Positions 15,022-33,690 of a DNA stretch of 36,585 nt are shown here, in pieces. Made by a program: the position numbers and the translations under genes. The notes under the pieces are model-generated. The model was not told the DNA's origin. It worked only from the letters and a program-made list of their open reading frames with translations, and made no database searches. Numbering within the stretch: position 1 is the first letter of the stretch; each line of letters opens with the position of its first letter. Origin of the DNA: Chloroflexota bacterium (GTDB taxonomy: Bacteria > Chloroflexota > Dehalococcoidia > JACPPT01); contig JACPPT010000050.1 of NCBI GenBank assembly GCA_016190815.1, positions 1 to 36,585 of the forward strand, read 5' to 3'.

Positions 15022-15129
15022 GACTTATGACCTCACCCCCTGACCCCCTCCCAGGCATAGGAGAGGGGGAAGAGAAAATTTGGGGAACACCCCCAAACCC
15101 CCGGCAGGGGCAAGCACCCCTGCACCCCG
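15022..15129 (-). repeat. intergenic hairpin element family 1, copy A (fills the atpA-atpG gap)
   Basis: minus strand CGGGGTGCAGGGGTGCTTGCCCCTGCCGGGGGTTTGGGGGTGTTCCCCAAA...CCCCCTC...GAGGGGGTCAGGGGGTGAGGTC; three 7-bp stems. Confidence 0.8.
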
Positions 15130-16650
15130 TTAGTCCCCTAAATACTTAGCGCCTTGTTTGAACTCCTGGATGGCTTTTTGAAGGACTTCGATGACGTCCT
15201 TCTTCAGCTCCTTTTCCTGAGCTATGCGCTTCCCGATCTCAGGGTGTCTCTGCTCCATATACTTGAGGAAGGCCTCTTCAAAGGCACTCACCTTGTTTAT
15301 AGGGACATCGTCCACAAAACCGTTGACGACAGCGTATAAAATCAACACCTGCTTTTCCAAGGACATAGGAACATACTGGGGCTGTTTTAAAATCTCGGTG
15401 ATGCGCTGCCCCCGCTCAAGCTGGGAGCGAGTGGTTTTGTCCAGGTCCGCCGTTCCAAACTGGGCAAAGGCTGCCAGCTCTCTGAACTGGGCCAGGTCGA
15501 GGCGCAGTCGGCCCGCAACCTGCTTCATAGCCCTGGTCTGGGCTGCTCCACCAACCCTGGATACCGAAAGCCCCACGTTCATAGCAGGACGGATGCCTGC
15601 ATTGAAAAGGTCGGTCTCCAGATAGATCTGGCCGTCGGTGATGGAGATGACATTGGTGGGGATATACGCAGCCACGTCTCCAGCCTGGGTCTCGATAATA
15701 GGCAGGGCGGTGAGAGAGCCACCGCCGTAGTCGGGATGAAGCTTGGCTGCCCTTTCCAGAAGGCGGCTGTGAAGATAGAAGACATCTCCCGGGTACGCCT
15801 CACGACCCGGCGGCCTTCTAAGCAAGAGGGAGAGCTGACGGTAGGCCCAGGCATGTTTGGAAAGGTCGTCATAGATTATGAGAGCGTCTTTCCCCTGCTC
15901 CATTATCTCCTCACCTATGGCGCAACCTGCGTAGGGTGCCAGATACTGAAGGGCAGCGGAGTCCGCTGCGCTGGCGGATACCACAATGGTGTGCTCCATT
16001 GCTCCATATTTATCCAGAATGGCAACGGCCTGGGCAACCTTTGATGCCTTCTGGCCAATGGCAACATATATACAGATCAAGTTCCCACCCTTCTGGTTTA
16101 CTATGGTATCCAGAGCGACGGCAGTTTTTCCTGTGGAGCGGTCGCCGATGATGAGCTCTCGCTGTCCTCGCCCGATGGGTATAATGCTGTCAATGGCCTT
16201 TATCCCCGTTTGAACAGGGGTATCCACCGACTTGCGCAAGACGACGTTGGGAGCAACTCTCTCAACTGGTCGTGTCTTTTCGTATTTTGCTGGACCTTTC
16301 CCATCCAAGGGCTGGCCTAGAGAGTTAATCACTCGTCCTATAAGGCCCTCTCCAACAGGCACCTCTACAATACGACCTGTAGCCTTGACCTCGTCTCCCT
16401 CTTTGATTTCGGAGTCTTCCCCCAGGATAATAGCGCCAACGCTCTCCTCCTCCAGGTTGAGGGCCAACCCCATGATGCCGTTGGGAAACTCCAATATCTC
16501 GCTGTATTTACATCCCGAAAGCCCGTGAATCCGTGCTATGCCATCCCCCACCTCAACCACCACACCGACATCCACCATTGTCGCAGTGGTGCCAAACTGC
16601 TCTATTTGTTGCTTAATGATAGAAGCTATATCCTGAGAACGAACTGCCAT
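15130..16650 (-). CDS. atpA: ATP synthase F1 subunit alpha
   Basis: [15 protein letters not shown], full-length 506 aa. Confidence 0.98.
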
Positions 16651-16675
16651 ATTCCTACCTCCGTCCTGCCAAAGA

Positions 16676-17215
16676 TTAAGGGGCCGCCTCGATGAGGCTC
16701 CTCTTCAAGCTCTGAAGCCTGCTGCGTATGCTACCATCCAGAACCCTGTCCCCTATCTTAACCACAAGCCCACCCAACAGGCCGGGCTCCACTTTAGCCA
16801 TCAATGTCACCTGCTTCCCTGTAACCGTGGAAATGCGCTGGGCTATTCTCTCCTTCTCTACATCACTTAGAGGTATAGCTGTTATCACCTCAGCGTGCTC
16901 AATACCTCTCTGCGCATCGAACATCTTCTCATACTCCAGGGCGATGTCTTTCACAATAGCCAGCCTTCCCCGCGCAACGAGGAGGAAAGCGAGGTTCAAA
17001 GCCAATGGGTGAACCCCTTCCAGCAGGCCAGCAAGAATTTTGAACTTCTCCCTCATTCTGACCTTGGGATTTCCCAAGAAAGCTGAGACCTCTGGCTCTG
17101 AAAGGGAGTGAGCCAAGGTATCGAGGTCTTCCTTCCATCTCTCCAGCTCGCCGCTCTCCTTAGCTATGTCAAACACAGCCTGAGCGTGTCTTTTTGCCGA
17201 AATCCCCTTAGCCAT
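16676..17215 (-). CDS. atpH: ATP synthase F1 subunit delta
   Basis: OSCP-like; [30 protein letters not shown]-terminus. Confidence 0.95.
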
Positions 17216-17725
17216 CTAGCTCTCCTGGCTCTTCCCTTTCTTAGAGCTCTCCTCCAGCACTTCCTGGATGAGTTGAACATGGGCCTGCTTGTCCAGCGAC
17301 CTGTTGATCACCTTCTCCGCAGCAAGGATGGCCAGCTCGGCAAACCTCTGTCGAACTTGCTCAATGGCTTCGTCCCTCTCCCTCTGAATCTCAGCCCTTG
17401 CCTTGGTGATAAGGGCTTCTCCCTCTTTCTTGGCCTCCTCCCTCGCCTCTGTCTTGAGCTTTTCCCCAATTTCAGCGGCCTGGGTGACGAGAGCTTGCCC
17501 CTCTTGGTGAGCAACCTCCAGTCTCTTCTTTATCTCCTGCTCTGAGCGTTCGGCATCCTTTTTTATCTGCTCGGCCCGCTCCATGCTCTCCCTTATTTTC
17601 TCAGAGCGCCTGTCCAGCATTCGCAGAATGGGCTTATAGAGCACAAAATAGAGGAGGAGGAGAAGAAGAGTGAAGTTAATTATTTGGGCTATCAAGCCCG
17701 GCAAATTTATTCCCAGGGCTCCCAA
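17216..17725 (-). CDS. atpF: ATP synthase Fo subunit b
   Basis: N-terminal TM helix, long charged coiled coil, operon position. Confidence 0.95.
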   Translation of the reverse strand: MGALGINLPGLIAQIINFTLLLLLLYFVLYKPILRMLDRRSEKIRESMERAEQIKKDAERSEQEIKKRLEVAHQEGQALVTQAAEIGEKLKTEAREEAKKEGEALITKARAEIQRERDEAIEQVRQRFAELAILAAEKVINRSLDKQAHVQLIQEVLEESSKKGKSQES

Positions 17726-17756
17726 AGACGCCCTCCTTCTAGAGATTCAGTTGACT

Positions 17757-17987
17757 CTATCCGATAAACTTGATGATTATGGCCACCACCAGGGCGTATA
17801 TGGCAATGGCTTCGGCGAAAGCTATGCCTAGGATCATGTTCACCCTAATGGCGCCCTCTGCCTCAGGATTTCGGCCCAGTGCCTCCATGGCCTTAGCCAC
17901 GAGAAGGCCGATGCCAAGCCCCGGCCCCAATGCCCCAAGACCAATGGCCAGCGCAGCCGCCAGGAACCTAAAGGATTCGTCAGTCAT
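17757..17987 (-). CDS. atpE: ATP synthase Fo subunit c
   Basis: two TM helices, [12 protein letters not shown] and [10 protein letters not shown] loop. Confidence 0.96.
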
Positions 17988-32600: not shown

Positions 32601-32956
32601 GTCTCCAGGGACGTGCCCAGTAGCCTGACGCTGAACTTTTCCAGCACGCCGGCCTTTGCCAGGTCCACCGCCAGGTTCAGGCCGGTCTGTCCTCCCAGAG
32701 TAGGAAGGAGGCCATCGGGGCGCTCCCGCTCTATGACCCTGGCCACGGCCTCCACGGTAAGCGGCTCTATGTATACGATGTCGGCTATGCCTTCGTCAGT
32801 CATTATGGTTGCGGGGTTGGAGTTCACCAGCACGGTGGTAACGCCCTCCTCTCGAAGGGCCTTGCACGCCTGGGTGCCGGCGTAGTCGAACTCCGCCGCC
32901 TGCCCGATAACTATGGGGCCTGAGCCTATGACCAGAACCTTAGAAGGCTTAGACAA
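29636..32956 (-). CDS. carB: carbamoyl-phosphate synthase large subunit (TTG start)
   Basis: full 1106-aa protein, duplicated ATP-grasp, [17 protein letters not shown]. Confidence 0.98.
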
Positions 32957-33008
32957 CTACGACCTCACCCCCTGACCCCCAGCAGGGAATATCCCTGCAC
33001 CCTGCTCT
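32957..33008 (-). repeat. intergenic hairpin element family 1, copy C (compact)
   Basis: minus strand GCAGGGTGCAGGGATATTCCCTGCTGGGGGTCAGGGGGTGAGGTCGTAG abutting the carB TTG. Confidence 0.75.
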
Positions 33009-33037
33009 TGAATTAACATAGCCATTGGATTCCAGCC

Positions 33038-33520
33038 TCATGTCAGCAGCTTACTCCTCAGGACTCTCAAATTCACAACGTCTTCCCTGTTATATTCAAG
33101 TAGTGTCTTTAAGGCCCCTCTGTCCCCTTCGATTTTGTACCGATACCACAGTTTGACAGCATCCACACCGGTTACCCCCTTCAATCTCCTGGGGATGCTC
33201 AACATCTCCTCTACGGCCTTGAACCCTCCGAACAAGTTTCTCTCCCAGCAGTCGTACATCAGGTCATGATGGAGGAATGCCGCGGCAAGGTCTACCCCCA
33301 GTGCGGTGTTTATAAAAGGGAGGTCGAACCGGCTTCCGTTGTAGGTGTAGATTTTATGTACATCCCCCAACGCTTTGAGGAGATTACCCCTGGTTGCATC
33401 TTTGCCGACCAGTTGAACCACCTCAAAGCGCCCGTCCTTGCTCAGGCCTATTCCGATGACGGTTATCTCGTGGTCAAAGGAAAGGCCGGTGGTCTCGATG
33501 TCTAAATACGCAGCTCTCAT
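33038..33520 (-). CDS. YprB-like RNase H-fold 3'-5' exonuclease
   Basis: AAYLDIETTGL, YTYNGSRFDLPFI, HHDLMYDCW, YNREDVVNL exonuclease motifs. Confidence 0.9.
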   Translation of the reverse strand: MRAAYLDIETTGLSFDHEITVIGIGLSKDGRFEVVQLVGKDATRGNLLKALGDVHKIYTYNGSRFDLPFINTALGVDLAAAFLHHDLMYDCWERNLFGGFKAVEEMLSIPRRLKGVTGVDAVKLWYRYKIEGDRGALKTLLEYNREDVVNLRVLRSKLLT

Positions 33521-33550
33521 CTGTGTTCCCCTATCTGTTCAATCATAATT

Positions 33551-33690
33551 ACTACGACCTCACCCCCTGGCCCCCTCTCCTGGGCCCAGTAGAGGGGGGA
33601 GGAGGAAGCTTGGGGATACCCCTTCGGCAGGCTCAGGGCAGGCCCCCAGTCCCCCGGCAAAGGGGCTTCGCCCCTCTGCACTCTTCCTTC
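33551..33690 (-). repeat. intergenic hairpin element family 1, copy B (with nested family 2 fragment)
   Basis: minus strand GAGTGCAGAGGGGCGAAGCCCCTTTGCCGGGGGACTGGGGG...CCCCCTCTACTGGGCCCAGGAGAGGGGGCCAGGGGGTGAGGTCGTAG. Confidence 0.8.

Follow-up and report, generated by a model that had tools for sequence, protein, structure and literature searches.

A dispersed palindromic repeat in a Chloroflexota genome and its link to DUF559 nuclease genes in other bacteria

A stretch of 36,585 nucleotides from a Chloroflexota genome (hereafter the window) contains five copies, A to E, of a hairpin-bearing repeat, and raises the question of what kind of element this is and how its copies came to be dispersed. 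A sequence-only reading had taken it for a dispersed, structured, mobile-type repeat with maintained pairing, and both our dispersal search and our pairing tests agree.

Layout of the five copies

The stems of all five copies are found where that reading had placed them (Table 1). Copies A, B and C lie on the plus strand; D and E are minus-strand fragments that lack the leader and retain no more than the last hairpin or hairpins and their surroundings. Likewise, the hairpin that it called leading exists, but is the last one when the repeat is read from the conserved leader. This C-rich leader (CCTCACCCCCTGnCCCCC) is common to A, B and C, all of which begin with CCTCACCCCCTG(A/G)CCCCC; neither it nor the tie of leader plus hairpin to DUF559 nucleases was named in that reading.

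Copy A lies within the atp gene cluster, where it fills the gap from the atpA stop to the atpG start, with TAA at either side by inspection, and copies B and C lie within the carA-carB cluster. The hairpin of copy D is the same as in a full copy of this genome (G000:C30:14565-14661, G000 being this genome). Copy E, which shows the weakest homology among the five, supplies with its end the last codons and the stop of an endonuclease III-like ORF (22866-23585). A detector for the module (leader CTCACCC plus a C-rich hairpin) recovers A and B in the window; by this criterion copy C has the leader with hairpin III only, while D and E have no leader. B and C could be read as a flanked unit around an RNase_H_2 gene (33038-33520), but they share the same orientation, unlike DUF559 units, and we judged this arrangement a coincidence.

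Table 1. Repeat copies in the window and their stems
Feature	Position	Strand	Description
Copy A	15028..15129	+	leader CCTCACCCCCTGACCCCC, hairpin I (CCCCCTCCC/GGAGAGGGGG), A-rich linker, hairpins II and III
Copy A, hairpin II	15079-15085 / 15091-15097		TTTGGGG / CCCCAAA
Copy A, hairpin III	15104-15110 / 15117-15123		GCAGGGG / CCCCTGC
Copy B	33552..33680	+	layout as copy A; hairpin II arm interrupted by nested repeat
Copy B, nested second repeat	about 33623-33642		CTTCGGCAGGCTCAGGGCAGG
Copy B, last stem	within 33657-33680		AGGGGC / GCCCCT
Copy C	32958..33004	+	leader CTACGACCTCACCCCCTGACCCCC fused straight to hairpin III; without hairpins I and II
Copy C, hairpin III	32982-32988 / 32992-32998		GCAGGGA / TCCCTGC
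Copy D	5646..5690	-	fragment: hairpin III with flanking C5/G5 tracts; without leader
Copy D, hairpin III	5657-5665 / 5669-5677		CCAGAGGGG / CCCCTCTGG
Copy E	23552..23606	-	degenerate hairpin II (CTGGGATACCCACAG), CCCCC, hairpin III; without leader
Copy E, hairpin III	23564-23571 / 23577-23584		CAAGGGGA / TCCCCTTG

Pairing of the stems across copies

By themselves, the five window copies are weak proof of maintained pairing, their fold z-scores running from 0.0 to -2.8. Over 74 copies from several genomes, pairing is unambiguously maintained: 91.9% of the cells of the last stem are paired, compared with 58.7% when arms are permuted and a maximum of 66.2% in 2000 permutations. Double changes are seen at all eight pairs of this stem. 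An arm-swap energy test gives the same answer for hairpins I, II and III alike, with 0/5000 permutations matching the observed value. Because variable loops misalign the stem arms in a whole-cassette MAFFT alignment, pair counts from that alignment were dropped and the arm-swap and loop-anchored tests used.

The step from compensatory change to selection on the fold is only partly supported. Pairing is indeed kept, but some of the variation comes from the exchange of a whole hairpin arm or loop (CCAGAAGGGGCTTCGCCCCCTCTGG versus CCAAAGTCCCGACCCTTCGGGACTCTGG), an outcome that hairpin copying or a template switch also yields. It is conceivable, though we lean against it, that the covariation arose without functional selection, with template switching, cruciform repair or the insertion of other palindromes rewriting the arms so that the mutation process itself keeps the pairing. 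Such a process would fit the TCCCGA..TCGGGA palindrome that replaces the arm or loop of hairpin III wholesale in 8 of the 74 copies, the nested repeat found at the same place of hairpin II in copy B and in G000:C32, and a poly-G expansion in L202. However, the many single pair swaps over all eight positions would require many independent small events, and arm rewriting accounts for the variation but not for the dispersal.

That the hairpins act in mRNA, as a structured RNA or a terminator, with selection on this role keeping the stems paired, seems improbable. Apart from the kept pairing, such a role would agree with the antisense orientation of 20 of 28 copies relative to their neighbours in tandem gene contexts, but this bias is small and the underlying ORF calls are approximate. 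For copy A, the minus strand does show one hairpin resembling a terminator, with TTTTCT, where 0.3 are expected; however, B and C have no terminator-like site, and strong termination would be harmful in the clusters in which A, B and C reside. Moreover, no Rfam family reaches threshold (the best, RF02937, scores 22.7 bits against 58.6, E 0.38), and relatives of the module occur in frame inside coding sequence.

Dispersal and candidate mobilisers

Of 60 genomes of the class, 24, this one included, contain related copies, and the cassette query finds 16 matches in this genome and up to 30 per relative, the best cross-family match of the cassette being 87% identical. At its simplest, the repeat consists of the C-rich leader YCTCACCCCCTGn and, behind it, the C-rich hairpin CCCCCTCTCC...GGAGAGGGGG; in Chloroflexota of the Dehalococcoidia type it has been enlarged to a cassette by two extra hairpins. 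The pattern of leader and hairpin I recurs in at least 117 stretches from many phyla. No mobilising enzyme is seen in the window, as had been noted before, and clustering within the class of the ORFs adjoining cassettes revealed no recurrent mobile-element gene.

The sequence-only reading had likened the repeat to REP/RAYT-type or other structured mobile repeats; classical REP elements are mobilised by a RAYT (Y1_Tnp) transposase. The cassette is a short extragenic palindrome, dispersed in many copies and frequently arranged as inverted pairs, as expected of REP elements. However, Y1_Tnp (PF01797) was not found in this genome (a draft, 71% complete), the module is present at 0/27 RAYT loci of relatives, and RAYT is present in only 2 of the 10 genomes richest in cassettes. 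On inspection, neither GTAG nor CGTC tags the foot of the stem, where the flanks read ..CTCACCCCCTGn for hairpin I and ..ACCCCCG / ACTC for hairpin III; CTAC occurs only in B and C, well off the stem foot and in the wrong orientation. RAYT as mobiliser of the window copies is thus refuted as far as draft genomes allow, and we consider the REP/RAYT assignment very improbable.

Perhaps the cassette is instead the cargo of a non-autonomous insertion sequence (IS), DDE transposases recognising terminal inverted repeats (TIRs) outside it and the link to DUF559 being ancestral or incidental; as an account of the family we find this rather unlikely. TIR-bearing copies do exist in relatives: in G056 and G028, inverted repeats of the form GAGCCTATCC(A/G)A(C/T)AAC enclose full-length copies some 150-166 bp long, the GAGCCTATCC motif has 19 and 17 matches compared with 0 and 1 in controls, and TNA stands on either side of most TIR-bearing copies. 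G056 also harbours a 1355-bp IS with a DDE_Tnp_1 transposase, the TIR CAGGCTGCTGAA and CTAG duplications; the ends of this IS recur on cassettes of 133-183 bp from other genomes. Within a copy, the left end agrees with the right one more closely than chance allows (0/5000; 3/5000 when tested within genomes). However, a clear TIR is found in only 12 of 71 cassettes, and none by eye on the window copies; since only 18% of copies stand out in an unanchored alignment of left and right flanks, TIRs are not general. Furthermore, DDE_Tnp_1 (PF01609) was not found in this genome, the search for a PF01609 transposase bearing GAGCCTATCC ends returned none, albeit another TIR pair, and the module is present without such TIRs in many phyla.

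Association with DUF559 nucleases

Unbiased clustering of ORFs across phyla yielded a family with a module no more than 61 bp away from every member. This family is DUF559: the module-flanked ORFs match DUF559 (PF04480) in Pfam and show a sequence match to a solved endonuclease-like protein (PDB 3HRL). Among unselected DUF559 loci of class relatives, 23 of 30 have a module within 200 bp, and 12 of 30 on both sides, by a loose detector whose thresholds were set once by hand and some of whose matches at these loci are weak. The corresponding counts are 0/27 for RAYT loci (Fisher p = 4e-10 for DUF559 versus RAYT) and 16/438 for random intervals, none of them on both sides. The flanks of DUF559 genes also have a higher inverted-repeat score than random ones (median 21 versus 9, p about 1e-26), the modules forming an outward-facing inverted pair. 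Such module-DUF559-module units are inserted in frame within pyrF, leuS, valS, ileS and ybeY. In the relative G105, pyrF contains an in-frame palindrome-DUF559-palindrome unit, with 70% and 63% identity on either side to the uninterrupted pyrF of the window.

Module variants that bracket a DUF559 gene are abundant in the genome of the same nuclease. The CCTAACCCCC..CTTCC variant, which flanks the DUF559 gene of G027, has 20 copies there and 0-4 in 19 other genomes, and a variant with a GTCNAC loop is commonest in G105 and G058, which have 4 and 10 DUF559 matches. Two window copies are tied to such modules by sequence identity: 28 nt of copy B (TACGACCTCACCCCCTGGCCCCCTCTCC) are identical to a module adjoining DUF559 in a relative (G018, L346; control 14), and 22 nt of copy A to a DUF559-flanking module (backwards control 13). 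For D and E, no match to DUF559 flanks exceeds the control level. DUF559 (PF04480) has no match in this genome, of which an estimated 29% is missing, and of the 10 genomes with the most cassettes only 2 have it. Its presence does not follow that of cassettes, with 12 of 24 cassette genomes having it compared with 15 of 36 genomes without cassettes.

We put about even confidence in the view that the window copies are mobile palindromes of a non-autonomous kind, which follow a REP-like logic and probably had DUF559 as their original partner. A DUF559 nuclease would recognise the folded or palindromic module and then cut or nick it, and module-DUF559-module units would spread by repair or copying, also in frame within genes. 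Solo modules, including those from which the window copies may descend, would spread in trans and persist after loss of the nuclease. Pairing would be retained if unpaired copies are non-substrates, or if hairpin arms are copied from one another. In some relatives, the cassette has also been captured between the TIRs of a DDE-transposase IS and would move as a MITE. In this genome the role of DUF559 is an inference, the gene being missing from the 71%-complete assembly and from most cassette-rich relatives. By comparison with relatives no closer than the same class, neither a target-site duplication nor an empty site could be established for the window copies, the TAA on either side of copy A being a candidate for such a duplication. 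Alternatively, DUF559 could be a passenger with a preference for palindromes and not the enzyme that mobilises them.

A broader proposal, which we advance more tentatively, is that a pan-bacterial superfamily of C-rich palindromes without tags has its dedicated mobilisers in the DUF559 nucleases, the module-DUF559-module unit being an autonomous element that inserts in frame and solo modules like those of the window its non-autonomous offspring. We know of no activity of module-flanked DUF559 proteins on such repeats, and among the consulted papers that mention DUF559 none turned up tying it to mobile palindromic repeats. Because the module brackets DUF559 genes in many other bacteria, our results suggest that such repeats have in DUF559 a partner enzyme that had gone unrecognised. 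Bacterial genomes commonly contain untagged palindromic repeats, and the link to DUF559 offers a candidate enzyme for them, while DUF559 gains a candidate role from a statistically strong, cross-phylum association with palindromes. How palindromic repeats spread, an old question, thereby becomes directly testable. If true, the proposal would account for an unexplained in-frame nuclease domain in aminoacyl-tRNA synthetase and metabolic genes.

Several known systems share features with this family. REP/RAYT REPtrons (GTAG), CGTC REPs and Rickettsia palindromic elements (PMC3733652, PMC2817692) are likewise short GC-rich extragenic palindromes in many copies, occurring singly or as inverted pairs, some of them within genes, and bracketing a nuclease or transposase gene in some genomes. 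The window family has a C-rich CTCACCCC leader in place of the GTAG or CGTC tag, and its probable partner is a PD-(D/E)XK DUF559 protein, whereas that of REPs is a HUH tyrosine transposase. CGTC REPs have no known dedicated transposase, and the proteins partnering untagged palindromes were left open (PMC3733652). A subset of cassettes in relatives resembles MITEs of DDE-transposase IS in size (133-183 bp), matched TIRs, TNA or CTAG flanks and, in one genome, a partner IS with DDE_Tnp_1; unlike MITEs, most cassettes have no TIR, and the identical core is found with differing TIRs, or TIR-free in other phyla. Pfam and sequence matches relate the bracketed proteins to DUF559/Vsr-like endonucleases (PF04480; 3HRL), among them Caulobacter VsrA, which is discussed as a mismatch-repair enzyme (PMC12907096), whereas here the association is with palindromes. 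Finally, the DUF559 units resemble homing endonuclease genes and inteins in that a small nuclease gene, here bordered by repeats, sits in frame within conserved genes such as leuS, valS, ileS and pyrF; in two split ORFs that were scanned, however, Pfam recognises no splicing domain or intron, and the units described here have palindromes at their ends that are also scattered as solo copies without the nuclease.

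Layout of the element and its copies

When the element is read starting at its conserved end, copies A, B and C open with CCTCACCCCCTG(A/G)CCCCC, and in a full copy this leader is followed by hairpin I (CCCCCTCTCC..GGAGAGGGGG), an A-rich linker, hairpin II (CTGGGGGATACCCCCAG), ACCCCC and hairpin III, the last being what the sequence-only reading had taken as the leading hairpin. We refer to the C-rich leader with hairpin I as the module, and to the module with hairpins II and III as the cassette. The window, whose gene set includes atp, car and pyr genes, is one of 81 contigs of a 1.33-Mb draft genome with a completeness estimate of 71%, in which a 97-base consensus finds 16 matches. 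Within the class, 24 of 60 genomes (this one included) match the consensus, with at most 30 matches per genome and a similarity across families as high as 87%.

Positions in the window of the five copies and associated features
Feature	Position	Strand	Description
Copy A	15028..15129	+	
Copy B	33552..33680	+	nested repeat within hairpin II
Copy C	32958..33004	+	leader fused to hairpin III
Copy D	5646..5690	-	fragment without leader
Copy E	23552..23606	-	fragment without leader; the endonuclease III-like ORF takes its C-terminal codons and stop from it
Endonuclease III-like ORF	22866-23585		
RNase_H_2 (PF13482) gene	33038-33520		single gene bracketed by C and B in direct orientation
Second dispersed repeat (CTTCGGCAGGCTCAGGGCAGG... 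/ GCTCAGAATGAC...)	33623-33642		nested in copy B
Second dispersed repeat	23640-23735		after copy E

A copy elsewhere in this genome, on contig C32 (L035), has hairpin II interrupted at the same point as in copy B by a related nested insertion. The bracketing of the RNase_H_2 gene is probably due to chance. A longer repeat (CTAGCATGGGGTTATGAGAG...TTGAAGACCTCACCCCC...) with the module inside it occurs on contigs C19, C64, C35, C77 and C54 (L003, L005, L006, L008, L023, L028); several of its copies sit near contig ends, and it may break the assembly of this genome.

Maintained pairing and its possible causes

The five stems first described are present as claimed; folded singly and compared with shuffles, they are unimpressive (z 0.0 to -2.8). 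Across 74 copies with loop-anchored arms, hairpin III is paired in 91.9% of cells versus 58.7% in permuted arms (maximum of 2000, 66.2%), with double changes at 8/8 pairs. Native arms also pair more favourably than swapped ones in hairpin III (-15.2 versus -9.6 kcal/mol) and hairpin I (-19.6 versus -16.4 kcal/mol), and only slightly so in hairpin II; for all three, the observed mean energies were attained in 0/5000 arm permutations. Given these pair counts and energies, the central claim that the stems vary in sequence yet remain paired is right. Its attribution to compensatory change under selection for the fold is less clear, since some arms have been swapped wholesale for another palindrome, which points to a copying or insertion process alongside or in place of such selection. 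One copy in a relative (L202, G028:C3) has hairpin II expanded to a G run of about 18-19.

In favour of a structured RNA or terminator are the antisense orientation to neighbouring genes of 20 of the 28 copies in tandem contexts (gene calls being approximate) and, at copy A, a single hairpin resembling a terminator on the strand of the genes. However, no such hairpin was found at B or C, and a primary RNA role is not supported. It is possible that the copies have a regulatory side effect.

Many copies in two relatives, G056 and G028, sit inside inverted repeats GAGCCTATCC(A/G)A(C/T)AAC. Measured with these ends they span about 150-166 bp, and most have TNA on both sides. Since in G028 these ends also enclose a different palindromic cargo (GTTCGACAGGCTCACC...; L183, L186, L188), they appear to form one MITE frame with interchangeable contents. 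Cassettes 133-183 bp long in three genomes have a second type of end, CAGGCTGCTGAAAAA, which in G056 also delimits an insertion sequence of 1355 bp that encodes a DDE_Tnp_1 transposase and shows CTAG duplications. Within a copy, the left and right ends resemble each other more closely than they resemble the ends of other copies (permutation 0/5000; 3/5000 within genomes). Nevertheless, because a clear TIR marks only 12 of 71 copies and none was seen by inspection on the window copies, transposon capture is real for a subset and not general.

The module and DUF559 nuclease genes

At least 117 stretches carry the pattern CTCACCCCCTGn(0-3)CCCCCTCTCC. They represent many phyla, including Chloroflexota, Gemmatimonadota, Bacteroidota (notably Hymenobacter), Armatimonadota, Desulfobacterota, Planctomycetota, Acidobacteria and others; among the matches listed the pattern nearly always precedes a matching stem, often as an inverted pair, and named cassette-bearing records include Dehalococcoidia and other Chloroflexi MAGs. 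When all ORFs of these stretches were clustered, with no prior selection, one family of small proteins emerged; it is represented in five different organisms, and none of its members lies more than 61 bp from a module. Pfam identifies it as DUF559 (PF04480); among solved structures the endonuclease-like protein 3HRL is the nearest to it, and a Caulobacter DUF559 protein has been described as PD-(D/E)XK, Vsr-like (PMC12907096).

Among 30 DUF559 loci drawn from the class regardless of modules, a module lies within 200 bp at 23 and on both sides at 12, versus 0/27 RAYT loci (Fisher p = 4e-10) and 16/438 random intervals (both sides, 0/438). An independent flank inverted-repeat score has medians of 21 for DUF559 (class relatives and module-bearing genomes pooled), 11 for RAYT and 9 for random. 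Leaders at DUF559 loci often face outward and hairpins inward. The earlier suggestion of a REP/RAYT-type repeat is rejected: none of the 27 RAYT loci has a module nearby, no Y1_Tnp domain was found in this draft genome (71% complete), and the stem feet lack the GTAG or CGTC tag by which REPs are defined (PMC3733652). Of 60 relatives, 20 have RAYTs, but only 2 of the 10 genomes with most cassettes have any.

In one relative (L341, G105:C138), a palindrome-DUF559-palindrome unit interrupts pyrF with the frame intact; the uninterrupted homologue is the window's own pyrF (69.6% and 63.0% identity either side), and the insert is flanked at each end by TTACC, a possible target duplication. In-frame DUF559 units with palindromic ends also lie in leuS, valS, ileS and ybeY (L247, L362, L363, L365, L368), those in leuS at apparently the same site in one Bacteroidia and one Nomurabacteria genome, and in Hymenobacter DUF559 is joined to purL- and recQ-like ORFs as well; BLASTP, PDB search and Pfam served as checks on pyrF, leuS and ybeY, the remaining names being read off the protein sequence. 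Repeat variants that border a DUF559 gene are common in the genome holding that gene. G027 has 20 copies of CCTAACCCCCTGRCCCCCTTCC, the variant flanking its DUF559; several belong to the DUF559 locus and the others are scattered, while 19 other genomes have 0-4. The hairpin with a GTCNAC loop that borders DUF559 in G105 is most abundant there and in the congener G058 (4 and 10 DUF559 matches, respectively); this genome, G005, G037 and G056, all without DUF559, have none of it. Such a distribution would be expected if every nuclease maintained a repeat of its own, in the way that REPs are maintained by RAYTs.

Standing of the window copies

Copy B has 28 consecutive bases in common with a DUF559-flanking module of a relative (G018), and copies A and C have 22 and 20 in common with Hymenobacter DUF559-flanking modules, against 11-14 for a backwards-read control, which D and E do not exceed. 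Judged by this identity, A, B and C carry a module of the DUF559 type; the only link of D and E to these copies is the hairpin II/III cassette. DUF559 was found neither in this genome (71% complete) nor in 8 of the 10 genomes richest in cassettes, and it is not distributed as the cassettes are (present in 12/24 genomes with them versus 15/36 without), which argues against a present-day DUF559 role. The simplest reading of the window copies is that they are non-autonomous or relict.

For untagged palindromic repeats, relatedness and partner proteins have been left open (PMC3733652), and our full-text literature search, with most subscription journals beyond reach, found no link between DUF559 and palindromic repeats. 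The module/DUF559 system is akin to REP/RAYT in kind, and its enzyme link would be new if it holds.
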